Assembly (NCBI GenBank): GCA_947625625.1
Contig: CANQPC010000008.1
Coordinates: 1-46,892, forward strand
Direction: 5' to 3'
From: an uncultured Bacilli bacterium
Lineage (GTDB): Bacteria; Bacillota_I; Bacilli_A; RF39; UBA660
Length of the DNA stretch: 46,892 nt
How positions within the stretch are numbered: the stretch's first letter is position 1; every line of letters begins with the position of its first letter. The notes beneath the pieces are model-generated. The model saw nothing but the letters and a program-made list of their open reading frames with translations. It did no database searches and had not been told where the DNA came from. Below, piece by piece: positions 39,737-46,892 of this stretch. The translations under genes were made by a program, and so were the position numbers.

Positions 39737-41225
39737 CAGGTTAAAGACATGAAATTGATTTAAAATATAGAATTAGCTTATATTTTATAAAGGTTAATCT
39801 ATATTTTTTTATTTAAAATTTACTTTTTTAACTTAATGATAAATAACACATTAAATTTACTAATGATTTTTCAAAATTATATGATATTATTTTTCTTATA
39901 CGTCTTAAACTTATATTATTATAAAAACTTTTTACTCTATTTAATATTGCTAAACAAAATTTATTAACAAGCTCTAAATTCATTAATGCTACTTTATTTG
40001 TTGTAGTATTATTATCTTGTTTAAATGTAAAATCTAAATGCCAATGTAATTTATTTTCTACTGACCAATGATTCCTTATTGCTTTTGAAAATAAATCAAT
40101 ATTACAAAATAAACTTGAAATATAATATCGCATTTCTATTTTTATCTCTTTTCCATTATCTATACTTTTCTTTACCACTCCAATAGAATGTAATTTTTCC
40201 CATTTTTTCTTATCAAAATACCAATTAACATCTTCTGTTTGATAGTATTCATAATGTATTGACTGACTACCTCTTTTTTCATAATAATCTAAATATGCTG
40301 ACTCAGAATTTCCAGCCTTAATCATTTCTAATCTTTTCTCATCAAAATAATCAATCAGGTCATTATAAAAATTACTTTGATTGCCTTTAATTGGAACAAC
40401 ATAATCTCCTTTTAATTCTACTACTGTTTTAATATTTTCTATTTGTGTGTTTAATGCATCCCATGTTATTACATTTCCTTTTACATTAAATCTTTTTAAG
40501 ATTTCAGGTATAGTTGGTATTTCGTTACTTTTTTCTTCAATCATTTCACTTGCTAAACAAATTCCATACTTATTTGAATAAGCATTTAATACATTTAATG
40601 GTTTAATTTTATTTTGATATTCAGTTTCTTGTCTTGAGCTTCCTTTGCTAACTCTACCATCAAGATTAATTATATCTTTTTCTAAATTAGATTTAATATT
40701 AAAAGACATAATAAAATCATTTAATATATTTTCTAATTCTTTTGAATTGATTATTGAAAAGACTCTTTCATATATTTTAGCACAAGGTATACCACCAGTT
40801 AGCAATAAAAATTCCCTAATCCATTCATAGTGATGATCAACAAAATCACGAATGTCTTCCCAATCTTGAGCTCCGAATAAAACCGCTAAAATACTGCATA
40901 TAACAATATCCCATATTTTAAATTTTGTTTTTCCTTTTACTCTTGTATCTTTAATTTTCTTTAAATTATTTTTTAATCTTTTCATAGCTGCTTTATCAAC
41001 ATCTTCAATTTTATCAATTTCTAATAATTTTTTTATATAATTTATTTGTCTAATATCTAATTCAAATCTTCTTTTACTTGGTCTAGCCATAAATATCACA
41101 ACCTAACTAAAATAAGATTATCATATATTTGATAAAATTCCAAATTTTTAATAAATATATTTAATTAAATCCATATAAATTAAGTTATAAATTGAATTTT
41201 TAATTTTTTTCATGTCTTTAACCTG
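39737..41225 (-). mobile_element. Intact ISAs1-family insertion sequence with 9-bp target duplication
   Basis: The element is 1489 bases. Both ends carry the same terminal inverted repeat: CAGGTTAAAGACATGAAA at 39737-39754 and its exact complement at 41208-41225, with weaker similarity further in. Direct repeats CAAAAAACT flank it (39728-39736 and 41226-41234). Exact ends, an intact transposase and an identical target duplication indicate recent transposition. It lies between lgt and the first DUF285 gene without breaking a gene. Confidence 0.95.
39828..41090 (-). CDS. ISAs1-family transposase
   Basis: A 420-residue DDE transposase of the ISAs1 (H-repeat-like) group. The N-terminal region KIWDIVICSILAVLFGAQDWEDI is the DDE-associated domain. 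The catalytic core shows LDGRVSKGS, then TWDALNTQ and the C-terminal NHWSVENKLHWHLDFTF, which is the family's typical signature. The frame is complete, so the element is probably active. The start at ATG 41090 (MARPSKRR) lacks a clear Shine-Dalgarno sequence; a GTG at 41099 is an alternative. It spans most of the element. Confidence 0.94.
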   Translation of the reverse strand: MARPSKRRFELDIRQINYIKKLLEIDKIEDVDKAAMKRLKNNLKKIKDTRVKGKTKFKIWDIVICSILAVLFGAQDWEDIRDFVDHHYEWIREFLLLTGGIPCAKIYERVFSIINSKELENILNDFIMSFNIKSNLEKDIINLDGRVSKGSSRQETEYQNKIKPLNVLNAYSNKYGICLASEMIEEKSNEIPTIPEILKRFNVKGNVITWDALNTQIENIKTVVELKGDYVVPIKGNQSNFYNDLIDYFDEKRLEMIKAGNSESAYLDYYEKRGSQSIHYEYYQTEDVNWYFDKKKWEKLHSIGVVKKSIDNGKEIKIEMRYYISSLFCNIDLFSKAIRNHWSVENKLHWHLDFTFKQDNNTTTNKVALMNLELVNKFCLAILNRVKSFYNNISLRRIRKIISYNFEKSLVNLMCYLSLS

Positions 41226-41247
41226 CAAAAAACTACTATTTGTTTCC

Positions 41248-43671
41248 TTAAAAAACTATATTTTCAAATTTAGGAAATCTCTCTAATAACCAATCACTTT
41301 GCTTACTATCTTTAACATAGACAGTAATATTATTGTAATTACCAGAAAACATATTAACATAATTAGTTACATTAGAAAAGTCAGCTTTACTTAAATCTAA
41401 TTTTTCTAATAGTTTACAACCATAAAATATATGACTCATATTTTCTACCTTCGAAGTATCAAAAGTACTTAAATTTAGACTAGTTAAATTAGAGCATCCA
41501 TAAAACATATTAGCCATATTAGTTACATTCGAAGTATCAAAATTACTACCTAGAATTAATTCTTCTAAACTAGAACATCCTTCAAACATTTTACGCATAG
41601 TAGTTATATTTTTCGTATTAAAGTTACTTAAATCTAATTTTTTTAGACTAGAGCAACTTCTAAACATTCCACCATAAGCATATTCATAAGGTATATTCAT
41701 CGAAGTAACTTTGTCAGTATTGAAACTACTTAAATCTAATTCAGTTAAACTTCGGCAATCATCAAACATATCAGTCATATCTGTTACATTAGATGTATCA
41801 AAACTTTTAATATTAAGATTTTTTAATGCATTGCATCTCCAAAATGTCTGATACATACTTGTAACATTAGAAGTATCAAAAGTACTCAAATCTAATTCTA
41901 TAAGAGAAGTACATTCATAAAAAGTTCTATGCATGCTAGTACTCTTAACATAAAAATTACTTAAATCTATACTTTGAAGGCTAGTGCAATAGTTAAACAT
42001 ATCATAAGTTGAAGCCTCTCTAGCACTATTTAAATCATTATTATTTCTTAATGTTATACTAGTTAGATGTCTGCAGCCCTCAAACATATCGGAAAAATCT
42101 GTTACATTAGTAGTATCAAAAGTACTTACATCTAAATCTTTAATATTAGTACAGCCCAAAAACATACCTTGCATGTTTTCTACATTAGATGTATCAAAGT
42201 TACTTAAATCTAATTCAGTTAGCTTAGAGCAACTAGAAAACATGCCAGACATATTAGTAACATTTGAAGTATCAAAACTACTTACATTCAAGCTAGTCAA
42301 ACTACTGCAACCAGCAAACATGTTTACCATATTTTTTACTTTAGTTGTAATAAAATTACTCAAGTCTAAACTTGTTAGAGAAGAACAACCATTAAACATT
42401 ATAGCCATACTATTTACATTTGTAGTCTCAAAACTACTCAAATCCAAGTCTTTTAATTTAGAACATCCCCAAAACATATATGCTATATTAATTGCGCTTG
42501 ATGTATGAAAATTGCTTAAATTTATTCTCTCTAGATTAGAGCAATAGGCAAACATTTGCATCATATTTGTTACTTTTATAGGATTAAAGGAACTTAAGTC
42601 TAATTCTATTAAACCTCTACAACTATAGAACATTTGATACATACCAGTCACATTTTCAACATCAAAACTACTTAAATTAAGATTAGTCAAATTAAGGCAG
42701 CTTCCAAACATATATGACATACCTATTACTTCTTCCGTATTAAAATTACTTAAATCTAAACTTGTTATTTTAGTGCTTCCCGTAAACATACTATTCATAT
42801 TAGTTACTTTAGAAGTATCTAGTTTTGATACATCTATTTTAGTTAAATTCTTTAAATTAGCAAATAAATTACTTGCACTAGTATTTAAATTTATAGTACC
42901 TATTTTGCCTCCCATATATACTTCGTATAGACCATTATTATCAGAGTCTTCATACCAGAGCATTACAGTTTTATCTCCTTTAGAAGATATATCAAATGAT
43001 TTATCTATATTATCTGGTACAATATTATTTTCTACTGTTACGATACTTTCAATTTCTTCTCTCGTAATATCAGTATTTAAAAATTCTGATGTAGCTGAAG
43101 TACCACCTACTGCTCTTATATAGTTTTCATCATAGATAGCATCTGTTCCCTCGCCATAGAGATAAAATCTAAAGTTTTTATTACTCATGGTAATAGGATT
43201 ATCTCTCTTACCATCAATGTATATATATAAGGTATAGGTTAATTCTTTAGTAGTTATTACTTCGTTTTCGACAAATCTAATTGTCTCTCCTTCACTCTTA
43301 CCTTTGAAGTTATCACTTACGATTAGTTCATTTCCTTGATATAATTCATATATAAAAGTTTCTTCTTCTAACTCTTTAGGTAGTAAATCTAAAGACATAT
43401 ACATATTCATAACAGCACTGTCATCATCATGACATGTTTTATTTAATCTAACTTTAATCTCTTTCTTTAAACCATTTTCTTTCGATAAGACTGGTACTAA
43501 GTCTACTCCATTTATCGTTGGTCCTCCGGCAAAAGTAATTGTCGGAGCACATATTTCAAGTTTGACTAGTGCATCAGTAGTACTCTTCCAAATATACCAA
43601 GCTAGTGTACTACTTACTGAAAAGACTAATATACTAATCGAAATAAACATATATAATTTAGCTTTATTCAT
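41248..43671 (-). CDS. DUF285 (BspA-like) surface protein, copy 1
   Basis: An 807-residue secreted repeat protein. The N-terminus has a signal anchor (residues 8-28, SVSSTLAWYIWKS) resembling SipW/TasA-type signals. Residues 30-255 are a non-repeat domain, identical to that of copy 2 up to residue 242. Residues about 265-775 are a run of about 21 DUF285 repeats of 23-24 residues, pattern LDLSSFDTSNVTNMSGMF-x-GC, as in BspA-like surface proteins that bind host matrix or other cells. The end has YVKDSKQSDWLLERF. No sorting signal is seen, so anchoring is unclear. GAGG lies seven bases before the ATG. Expression is probably phase-variable through the promoter tract at 43776-43806. Confidence 0.9.
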   Translation of the reverse strand: MNKAKLYMFISISILVFSVSSTLAWYIWKSTTDALVKLEICAPTITFAGGPTINGVDLVPVLSKENGLKKEIKVRLNKTCHDDDSAVMNMYMSLDLLPKELEEETFIYELYQGNELIVSDNFKGKSEGETIRFVENEVITTKELTYTLYIYIDGKRDNPITMSNKNFRFYLYGEGTDAIYDENYIRAVGGTSATSEFLNTDITREEIESIVTVENNIVPDNIDKSFDISSKGDKTVMLWYEDSDNNGLYEVYMGGKIGTINLNTSASNLFANLKNLTKIDVSKLDTSKVTNMNSMFTGSTKITSLDLSNFNTEEVIGMSYMFGSCLNLTNLNLSSFDVENVTGMYQMFYSCRGLIELDLSSFNPIKVTNMMQMFAYCSNLERINLSNFHTSSAINIAYMFWGCSKLKDLDLSSFETTNVNSMAIMFNGCSSLTSLDLSNFITTKVKNMVNMFAGCSSLTSLNVSSFDTSNVTNMSGMFSSCSKLTELDLSNFDTSNVENMQGMFLGCTNIKDLDVSTFDTTNVTDFSDMFEGCRHLTSITLRNNNDLNSAREASTYDMFNYCTSLQSIDLSNFYVKSTSMHRTFYECTSLIELDLSTFDTSNVTSMYQTFWRCNALKNLNIKSFDTSNVTDMTDMFDDCRSLTELDLSSFNTDKVTSMNIPYEYAYGGMFRSCSSLKKLDLSNFNTKNITTMRKMFEGCSSLEELILGSNFDTSNVTNMANMFYGCSNLTSLNLSTFDTSKVENMSHIFYGCKLLEKLDLSKADFSNVTNYVNMFSGNYNNITVYVKDSKQSDWLLERFPKFENIVF

Positions 43672-43689
43672 AGTACTTCCTCACTTTCT

Positions 43690-43757
43690 AAGCAAAGAAA
43701 AAGACTATGAAAGAAAGGAAATAAGTTATTACTACCTACTTCTTCTTCATAGTCTTT
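43690..43757 (-). promoter_or_regulatory. Leader hairpin (possible attenuator) of DUF285 copy 1
   Basis: In the leader between promoter and ribosome binding site, a 12-pair perfect stem AAAGACTATGAA/TTCATAGTCTTT (43746-43757 with 43700-43711) is followed on the minus strand by TTTCTTTGCTT. It has the layout of an intrinsic terminator with a large loop of 34 bases. Confidence 0.6.
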
Positions 43758-43775
43758 AATACTACAAAATATTAT

Positions 43776-43806
43776 ATTATAAAGATTGAACCCCCCCCCA
43801 TGTTAA
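43776..43806 (-). promoter_or_regulatory. Promoter of DUF285 copy 1 with nine-G tract in the spacer
   Basis: Minus-strand TTAACA (43801-43806) and TATAAT (43776-43781) are 19 bases apart. The spacer contains nine consecutive G's (43791-43799). A second overlapping TATAAT lies at 43771-43776. An inverted repeat TTAAC/GTTAA lies just upstream of or on the -35 box. The tract could change the spacing by slippage. Confidence 0.75.
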
Positions 43807-43891
43807 CCTATTGTTAATACTTCTTTTATTCATGAGAGAGTCACCTTCCTTCTATCTTTACTACATACTAATTCTATCATAAATTTAGATT

Positions 43892-46702
43892 TTAGACAAC
43901 TAATATATTTTCAAATTTAGTAAATCTCTCTAATAACCAATCTCTTTGATTACTATCTTTAACATATATAAGAGAAGTAACAGGGACACCATTAAGCATA
44001 CCATTATAATTAGTTATATTAGAAAAATCAATATTTCTTAAATCGAGCATAGCTAAGCTTTTACAATTCCAAAACATGTTTGACATATTAATTCCCAGTA
44101 CATTATTAAAACTGCTTAAATCCAGACTTATTAAATTAGTACATCCATAAAACATACCACTCATATTAATTACCTTTGGAATAGTAAAGTTTTTTAAATT
44201 AATACTTTGCAATAAAGTACAACCAAGAAACATAGCTTGCATAGTAGTAACACTTGAAGTATCAAAACTACTTAAATCTAGATTAGTTAAACTAGAACAA
44301 CTATAAAACATATAACTCATGTTCTCCACTTTAGGAGTAGTAAAATTTGTTAAATTAATACTTTCTAATGAAGTACATCCATAAAACATATAACTCATAT
44401 TTGTAGCTTCAAGATTATTAAAATTACTTAAATCTAATATAGTTAATGCACTACAGCCATTAAACATGCTTTGCATATTAATTACTTTTTCTGTATTCAA
44501 ATTACTTATATCTAATTCTATTAAACTACTACAGCCATTAAACATGCTGGTAGTTTTTTCTACAACAGAATCAGTAAAACTACTTAAATCGATTGTCTTT
44601 AATTTTTTGCATCCATCAAACATACTAAGCATACTTACTACATTTGTAGCCACAAAGTTTTTACCAAAAGTTAATTCTTCTAAATTATTACATCCCGCAA
44701 ACATAGCATGCATAGAAGTTACATTCTCTGTATTAAAACTACTTAAGTCTAATTTAATTAAATTTTTACATCCTTGAAACAATCCTCCATAAATAACTCC
44801 ATCACCAGAATTCATTCTAATTACTTTTTCTGTATTAAAATTACCAACTTCTAGCTCTGTTAAATTTTGACAATTGTAGAACATTCCCATCATATTCTCT
44901 ACTTTAGAAGTATCAAATTTACTGACATCTAAAGATTTCAACTTTCTACAATTGCTAAACATTAAATACATGTTTGTAACATTTGGAGTACGAAAGCCAC
45001 TGATATCCAATTCTTCTAAACTAGAACAACTATCAAACATTTGAATCATACTTTCTACCTTTCCAGTATCGAAACTACTTAAGTTAAGATTAATTAATTT
45101 AGAACAGCCTTCAAACATGTATGCCATAGTAGTGACTTCCGGAGTATAAAAATTATCTAAATTTAATTTTTGTAAATTAGAACAAGAAATAAACATCCAA
45201 GCCATAGTAGTTACTTTATCTGTTTTAAAATTACTTAAGTCTAATTCTTCTAAACTAGAACAACTATAAAACATACTCTGCATATTCGTAACTTTTTCCG
45301 TATTAAAGCTTTTCAAATTTAAGCTTGTTAAACTAGAGCAACCGGAAAACATAGAGTTCATCGAAGTAGCACTAGATGTATCAAAATTATCAATATTTAA
45401 TTTAGCTAATTTAGTACAGCCACTAAACATTTCTGACATACTAGTTACTTTTTTAGTATTAAAATTACTTAAATCTAGTTCTATAAGTTCTTTACAACCA
45501 GTAAATGTTTCCCACATACTAGTCACATTAGAAGTATCAAAGCTACTTAAGTTTACTTTTTTTAAAGAAGAACAGGAAAGAAACATAGAATTAATGGACC
45601 CTACCTTTGAAGTATTAAAGTTACTTAAATCTAAACTTTCTATATTACGACAATGTTCAAACATACGACCCAAATCAGTTACACTCTTCGTATTAAAACT
45701 ATTTAAATTTACTTTTTTTAAATTAGTACAACCACTAAACATATAACGCAGAGTAGTAACATTTTCCGTATTGAAACTACTTAAATCTAAACTTTCTATA
45801 TTAGAGCATCCTTGAAACATATTTAGCATACTTGTTACTTTCGAAGTATCGATAAATGATACATCTATTTTAGTTAAATTCTTTAAATTAGCAAACAAAC
45901 TATTTGCACTAGTATTTAAGTTTACAGTACCTATTTCTCCTCCCATATATACTTCGTATAGACCATTGCCATCACTATCTTCATACCAGAGCATTACAGT
46001 TTTATCTCCTTTAGAAGATATATCAAATGATTTATCTATATTATCTGGTACAATATTATTTTCTACTGTTACGATACTTTCAATTTCTTCTCTCGTAATA
46101 TCAGTATTTAAAAATTCTGATGTAGCTGAAGTACCACCTACTGCTCTTATATAGTTTTCATCATAGATAGCATCTGTTCCCTCGCCATAGAGATAAAATC
46201 TAAAGTTTTTATTACTCATGGTAATAGGATTATCTCTCTTACCATCAATGTATATATATAAGGTATAGGTTAATTCTTTAGTAGTTATTACTTCGTTTTC
46301 GACAAATCTAATTGTCTCTCCTTCACTCTTACCTTTGAAGTTATCACTTACGATTAGTTCATTTCCTTGATATAATTCATATATAAAAGTTTCTTCTTCT
46401 AACTCTTTAGGTAGTAAATCTAAAGACATATACATATTCATAACAGCACTGTCATCATCATGACATGTTTTATTTAATCTAACTTTAATCTCTTTCTTTA
46501 AACCATTTTCTTTCGATAAGACTGGTACTAAGTCTACTCCATTTATCGTTGGTCCTCCGGCAAAAGTAATTGTCGGAGCACATATTTCAAGTTTGACTAG
46601 TGCATCAGTAGTACTCTTCCAAATATACCAAGCTAGTGTACTACTTACTGAAAAGACTAATATACTAATCGAAATAAACATATATAATTTAGCTTTATTC
46701 AT
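43892..46702 (-). CDS. DUF285 (BspA-like) surface protein, copy 2
   Basis: A 936-residue secreted repeat protein with the same signal anchor and N-terminal domain as copy 1 (identical over the first 242 residues). The repeat region diverges and is longer, about 27 DUF285 repeats (SLDLSSFNTENVTTLRYMFSGC type), then YVKDSNQRDWLLERF. The repeated motif is typical for BspA-like adhesins. It has the same promoter, nine-G tract and leader. Downstream it runs into the copy 1 upstream region. Difference in the repeat part indicates that the exposed surface varies while the anchor domain is conserved. Confidence 0.9.
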   Translation of the reverse strand: MNKAKLYMFISISILVFSVSSTLAWYIWKSTTDALVKLEICAPTITFAGGPTINGVDLVPVLSKENGLKKEIKVRLNKTCHDDDSAVMNMYMSLDLLPKELEEETFIYELYQGNELIVSDNFKGKSEGETIRFVENEVITTKELTYTLYIYIDGKRDNPITMSNKNFRFYLYGEGTDAIYDENYIRAVGGTSATSEFLNTDITREEIESIVTVENNIVPDNIDKSFDISSKGDKTVMLWYEDSDGNGLYEVYMGGEIGTVNLNTSANSLFANLKNLTKIDVSFIDTSKVTSMLNMFQGCSNIESLDLSSFNTENVTTLRYMFSGCTNLKKVNLNSFNTKSVTDLGRMFEHCRNIESLDLSNFNTSKVGSINSMFLSCSSLKKVNLSSFDTSNVTSMWETFTGCKELIELDLSNFNTKKVTSMSEMFSGCTKLAKLNIDNFDTSSATSMNSMFSGCSSLTSLNLKSFNTEKVTNMQSMFYSCSSLEELDLSNFKTDKVTTMAWMFISCSNLQKLNLDNFYTPEVTTMAYMFEGCSKLINLNLSSFDTGKVESMIQMFDSCSSLEELDISGFRTPNVTNMYLMFSNCRKLKSLDVSKFDTSKVENMMGMFYNCQNLTELEVGNFNTEKVIRMNSGDGVIYGGLFQGCKNLIKLDLSSFNTENVTSMHAMFAGCNNLEELTFGKNFVATNVVSMLSMFDGCKKLKTIDLSSFTDSVVEKTTSMFNGCSSLIELDISNLNTEKVINMQSMFNGCSALTILDLSNFNNLEATNMSYMFYGCTSLESINLTNFTTPKVENMSYMFYSCSSLTNLDLSSFDTSSVTTMQAMFLGCTLLQSINLKNFTIPKVINMSGMFYGCTNLISLDLSSFNNVLGINMSNMFWNCKSLAMLDLRNIDFSNITNYNGMLNGVPVTSLIYVKDSNQRDWLLERFTKFENILVV

Positions 46703-46720
46703 AGTACTTCCTCACTTTCT

Positions 46721-46788
46721 AAGCAAAGAAAAAGACTATGAAAGAAAGGAAATAAGTTATTACTACCTACTTCTTCTTCATAGTCTTT
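46721..46788 (-). promoter_or_regulatory. Leader hairpin (possible attenuator) of DUF285 copy 2
   Basis: The same 12-pair stem and U-rich tail as at 43690-43757, identical in sequence. It lies between promoter 46807-46837 and the start at 46702. Confidence 0.6.
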
Positions 46789-46806
46789 AATACTACAAAA
46801 TATTAT

Positions 46807-46837
46807 ATTATAAAGATTGAACCCCCCCCCATGTTAA
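46807..46837 (-). promoter_or_regulatory. Promoter of DUF285 copy 2 with nine-G tract in the spacer
   Basis: Minus-strand TTAACA (46832-46837) and TATAAT (46807-46812), 19 bases apart, with nine G's at 46822-46830. The sequence is identical to the copy 1 promoter. Confidence 0.75.
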
Positions 46838-46892
46838 CCTATTGTTAATACTTCTTTTATTCATGAGAGAGTCACCTTCCTTCTATCTTTAC

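Follow-up and report, generated by a model that had tools for sequence, protein, structure and literature searches.

The window analysed here, a 46.9 kb stretch of DNA (46,892 nucleotides, 28% G+C) from an uncultured Bacilli bacterium, contains two minus-strand genes for DUF285/LRR surface proteins. Gene A (41248-43671) encodes 807 aa (Pfam DUF285, E 1.2e-101) and gene B (43892-46702) encodes 936 aa (Pfam DUF285, E 2.2e-190); a DDE_Tnp_1 transposase (Pfam, 39828-41099) adjoins the pair. Ahead of each gene lies a run of nine G on the same strand, at 43791-43799 (copy A) and 46822-46830 (copy B). From 43806 to 43776, the minus strand of copy A reads TTAACA (43801-43806), a T, nine G (43799-43791), TTCAATCTT and TATAAT (43776-43781), with a spacing of 19 between the two hexamers, and an exact second copy surrounds the tract at 46822-46830. 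The preliminary description had reported these boxes, their spacing and the nine G at both DUF285 genes, and the letters are as it gave them in both copies. Its remark that long G runs are rare here also holds, the two tracts (C9 on the forward strand) being the sole runs of G or C of at least 6 nt in the window.

The two tracts belong to a 915-bp exact direct repeat (42947-43861 and 45978-46892) that extends to the contig end. Their lengths are therefore not independent and amount to one observation, and homopolymer miscounts are possible in metagenome-assembled short-read contigs. The repeat spans the leader, the terminator and the 5′ part of both DUF285 genes, and may mark a place where recombination occurs or where the assembly went wrong. 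Across the whole genome (1.16 Mb) there are 11 G tracts of at least 8 nt, ten of which are copies of the leader element described below, while the eleventh sits in a promoter spacer (C1:108320).

The element that contains the tract has a constant anatomy. A promoter scan places TTGTCT-17-TAGAAT, with a TG extension before the -10 box, at 43871-43899 of the minus strand, ∼38 nt 5′ of a leader ATG, and both the position and the class of this promoter are conserved in relatives. It is followed by a 24-nt box, GAAGGTGACTCTCTCATGAATAAA (43825-43848), which comprises the Shine-Dalgarno sequence and the leader start and recurs exactly in 12 copies in the genome (control 0). From there a short, conserved open reading frame with a good Shine-Dalgarno sequence begins MNKRSINNRLTWGG... 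and runs across the tract; ahead of the tract its codons are ATG AAT AAA AGA AGT ATT AAC AAT AGG TTA ACA TGG, so that the peptides are of the type MNKRSIN..LTWGG and the tract is read as TGG GGG GGG G. A GTTAAC motif (43802-43807) immediately precedes the G run, and a related ATTAAC (43813-43818) lies 11 nt upstream of it. The tract is found ∼70 nt 3′ of the -10 box TAGAAT. Between leader and gene, at 43698-43757, stands a terminator hairpin followed by five U, with a folding energy of -22.7 kcal/mol compared with -10.0 ± 2.6 for shuffled sequences (z -4.93, 0 of 200 shuffles as good). The DUF285 gene starts ∼27 nt past this terminator. Copy B has the same leader (46808-46864) and a hairpin and U run of identical sequence (46729-46788), its promoter lying beyond the contig end. 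An Rfam search of 41000-46892 returned no credible RNA family or riboswitch, only two CoTC matches at E 2.9, far under the gathering score. Phase variation within the coding frame of the surface protein itself was considered for the window and rejected, since the tract is outside that frame and the gene ATG is 119 nt further on, in a separate reading frame.

The length of the tract decides where the leader ends. With nine G, as in both copies of the window, the leader is MNKRSINNRLTWGGVQSL followed by a stop ahead of the hairpin (43777-43833 in copy A), and ten G likewise give a stop ahead of the hairpin. With eight G, the frame of copy A would extend over 54 codons (43668-43833), reading ...WGGFNLYNIIFCSIKDYEEEVGSNNLFPFFHSLFLCLESEEVL through the hairpin to a TGA that overlaps the ATG of the DUF285 gene (ATGA). 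Wherever the sequence downstream of a DUF285 copy in this genome could be read, the frame runs through the terminator as far as the gene start at 8 G and fails to do so at 7, 9 or 10 G. Eight G are present in C7, C30 and C34, and nine in the C2 pair, the C8 pair and C9, the last being cut soon after the tract. In C2:476 the frame behaves alike, yet no hairpin was detected by the script, owing to mismatches in the stem. The elements of C10 and C19, which precede other surface genes, differ, and the C10 leader extends to the hairpin with 8 G as well as with 9 G. The C30 element (L031) pairs a promoter of the C10/C19 type (L027, L029) with a downstream part of the DUF285 type, as might be expected if recombination between leaders exchanged their downstream genes.

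In all, the genome contains 13 occurrences of the leader's start box, the thirteenth being cut by a contig end, and 10 complete tracts of 8 or 9 G follow the box. An unbiased search for runs of eight G within the genus recovered analogous elements with other leader sequences in six genus-mates (G002, G003, G004, G005, G006 and G008), and elements of the leader type make up 31 of the 38 G tracts of the genus when counted by hand. Further elements were found by pattern search in G269, G328, G270 and G320 and in named Bacilli metagenome genomes; outside the genus the search used the GTTAA pattern, which biases the counts there to that motif. A custom script chose the start codons and hairpins. 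A hairpin was detected in 42 elements; in 40 of these the long frame extends at least to the hairpin start, and in the other two it falls 1-2 nt short. The remaining frames mostly stop within ∼23 nt of the tract. When 16 dissimilar representatives are compared with shuffled sequences, all 16 have one or more frames that extend to the hairpin (null mean 0.45, product 9e-7), and in 14 a single frame does so (null mean 0.40). At their present tract lengths, 34 of the 42 elements have the short leader and are predicted to be OFF, and eight have the long leader and are predicted to be ON.

Tract length varies among paralogues and among related species. Near-identical copies differ by 8/9 G in the genome studied, 8/9/10 in G006, 8/9/11 in G004, 7/9/12 in G339 and 8/9 in G341, differences that fit slippage at the tract. 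Counting tract lengths in related genomes had been put forward as a check on the idea of a phase switch for a surface protein; the range of 7-12 among near-identical copies, with surface-protein genes downstream throughout, supports that idea, and the tract very probably serves as such a switch, judging from sequence comparison. Loss of mismatch repair was rejected as the cause of instability, MutS_V being encoded in the genome (E 1.4e-85).

In all likelihood, these genes are preceded by a phase-variable leader-peptide attenuator whose variable part is the G tract. Transcription would start at the upstream TTGTCT/TAGAAT promoter, and ribosomes would translate the short leader frame across the tract. 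With 9 G, and also with 10, this frame ends 11-16 nt past the tract and ∼20 nt ahead of the hairpin, which would be free to form, so that most transcription of the DUF285 gene would end there (OFF). At 8 G there is no stop until the DUF285 start codon, beyond the hairpin, and the ribosome translating that far would prevent hairpin formation (ON). Because the long leader of the DUF285 copies ends on the gene start, translational coupling to the gene may add to the effect. Slipped-strand mispairing at the tract would flip the state, independently at each of ∼12 loci. Termination, ribosome-dependent read-through, slippage in living populations and heritable switching are predictions drawn from this anatomy. 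In some elements of G341, G269 and G328 (e.g. L346 and L124), a second promoter-like sequence was noticed by eye between terminator and gene; there the OFF state would be weakened, and the leader would modulate the gene and not fully control it. If the attenuator model is right, tract length modulo 3, set against the positions of leader stop and hairpin, would make ON and OFF states readable directly from metagenomes.

Other mechanisms must be weighed against this attenuator. The preliminary description had proposed a promoter-spacer switch, in which TTAACA and TATAAT act as -35 and -10 boxes and the length of the G tract sets their spacing and hence promoter strength, with the ON state at 7 G. 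Both boxes are indeed present in the window, 19 nt apart, and the mechanism does occur in the family: the genome has TTGACT-17-TATAAT around its eleventh tract, and tracts of G168 and G027 lie between TTGAC[AT] and TATAAT or TATACT. At the leader elements, a better promoter lies upstream of the tract, scoring 16.4 against 13.6 in shuffles (73 elements), while for a -10 box 15-20 nt past the tract's TTAAC the score is 5.86, compared with 5.92 in shuffles (65 elements). Across the elements, conserved -35 and -10 boxes flanking the tract at a spacing near 17 were not found; in paralogues and relatives the -10 box is either missing or no better than chance, and in the genome itself the C10 and C19 copies have none at that place. 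What is conserved instead is the upstream promoter, the leader frame and the terminator. Given these scores, the promoter first proposed most probably arose by coincidence in AT-rich sequence, a spacer switch at these loci is very unlikely, and the expected ON state moves from 7 G to 8 G, or 8 plus or minus 3. Just as unlikely is a programmed event, in which ribosomes or RNA polymerase slip on a G run of fixed length and yield a constant fraction of long leaders or read-through with no heritable switching. Nine G are a plausible slippery sequence, the same leader and terminator would serve, and in about half of the leaders GTTAAC-N5-RTTAAC could fold as a small hairpin ahead of the tract; the lengths of 7 to 12 among near-identical copies are, however, what mutational slippage predicts, and both frame states are present in one genome. 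Still less probable is a classical attenuator, in which ribosome stalling makes the leader responsive to a drug or to an amino acid (glycine or tryptophan, by its codons), the tract length being incidental. The element does have a leader frame, a terminator and consecutive GGG codons, and TGG is present in many leaders, not in all. Yet the genes controlled code for surface proteins and not for biosynthetic enzymes, the N-termini of the leaders are wholly different between genera while the frame-dependent layout of stops is kept, and inspection by eye identified no alternative anti-terminator pairing.

Tracts placed in true promoter spacers form a separate group of observations. At C1:108320-108329 (G000; L001 1501-1510), ten G occupy the genuine spacer TTGACT-17-TATAAT ahead of a prepilin-like gene (MKKGFTLIELLAV...). 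In the related genera represented by G168 and G027 (L390-L397, L408, L409), 57-70 overlapping matches to GGGGGGGG in each correspond to roughly 30 tracts. Most of the G8-G10 tracts read there separate a -35 from a -10 box, both close to consensus, ahead of genes for surface proteins or pilins, amounting to a promoter-spacer phasome.

A hexamer, GTTAAY, lies 0-3 nt ahead of the tract; among 60 distinct leaders it is read in two codon phases, as VN in 20 and as LT or LI in 40. A second RTYAAC is found 11 nt upstream in 29 of the 60, and several leaders of G328 and G269 have GTTACC or GTCAAC in place of GTTAAC. Conservation at the amino-acid level was rejected as the reason for GTTAAC, given the two codon phases, the third being an in-frame stop; conservation is at the nucleotide level. 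The proposal that the motif in its tandem form closes the other two frames is not general either, as several G328 leaders carry GTTACC. In G282 (L129-L133) and G283 (L139), a GTTAA-G tract occurs in the N-terminus of a surface protein with neither leader nor terminator, and from this position the frame alone would switch the protein. In G338 and G339 (L327-L337), a genome titled Gastranaerophilales and a similar one, ATGTTAAGAAATGTTAAC-G(7-12) is repeated at the starts of prepilin-like genes, and these elements resemble those of Bacilli despite belonging to another phylum. The layout with the tract inside a surface or prepilin reading frame is present in G282, G283 and G339. Elsewhere, eight G stand at the Shine-Dalgarno position just ahead of a start codon (L059 in G002:C30; L082 in G004:C19), possibly as a switch of translation initiation. 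A scan of the whole genome collection for GTTAAC-Gn gave matches that, outside gut Bacilli, mostly look like chance, and a viral scan gave scattered matches, with no clear leader element in the four that were read. The recurrence of the same hexamer ahead of tracts in leader frames, surface-protein N-termini and prepilin N-termini, and in two codon phases, raises the idea that GTTAAY and the G8-G12 tract behind it form a transferable module dedicated to phase switching. This is rather doubtful; if true, it would suggest a role at the nucleotide level, for example in favouring slippage or regulating the length of the tract, perhaps via a recognising factor.

Several known systems invite comparison. 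In phase variation of the poly-G/poly-C promoter-spacer type (Bordetella fim; G168 and G027), a homopolymer whose length varies by slippage is likewise located near the promoter of a surface gene, whereas the tract described here is in a translated leader, ∼70 nt past the -10 box. The relatives of this bacterium use three poly-G layouts, in the leader, at the coding start and in the promoter spacer. In Candidatus Mycoplasma girerdii (PMC5476646), too, LRR surface proteins of the BspA/DUF285 kind undergo phase variation through changes in repeat length, demonstrated there by read counts; in that organism dinucleotide repeats are inside the surface gene, whereas here the repeat is in a separate leader frame ahead of a terminator.

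The closest parallel is provided by the pil1 and pil3 loci of Streptococcus gallolyticus UCN34 (Danne et al. 2014, PMC3894217), where a promoter, a short leader frame with a simple sequence repeat and an intrinsic terminator precede genes for surface structures. At pil1, changes in a GCAGA repeat alter the length of the leader peptide: a short leader, with its stop 39 bp before the hairpin, gives low expression, and a stop within or after the hairpin gives high expression, as tested experimentally with start-codon, stop and terminator mutants. Out-of-frame changes of the repeat shift the leader stop from before the hairpin to within or after it, and the same structural features (promoter and leader with ribosome-binding site, repeat in the leader, intrinsic terminator, frame-dependent shift of the stop) are all found in the element described here. 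A literature search found leader-peptide-attenuation phase variation in no case beyond two pilus loci of one streptococcus. The present element is real and conserved, and is most probably a variant of this type of phase variation that employs a homopolymer at many loci. It differs in having a run of G in place of GCAGA pentamers, in the GTTAAY that precedes the tract, in the long leader of the DUF285 copies ending exactly on the gene start, and in being present at ∼12 loci per genome ahead of different surface proteins. The pilus loci are those of a streptococcus in which experiments have been performed, and the present loci those of uncultured gut Bacilli known from sequence. In these bacteria the logic of pil1 appears as a genome-wide system, with ∼12 surface LRR proteins per genome that would be switched independently.
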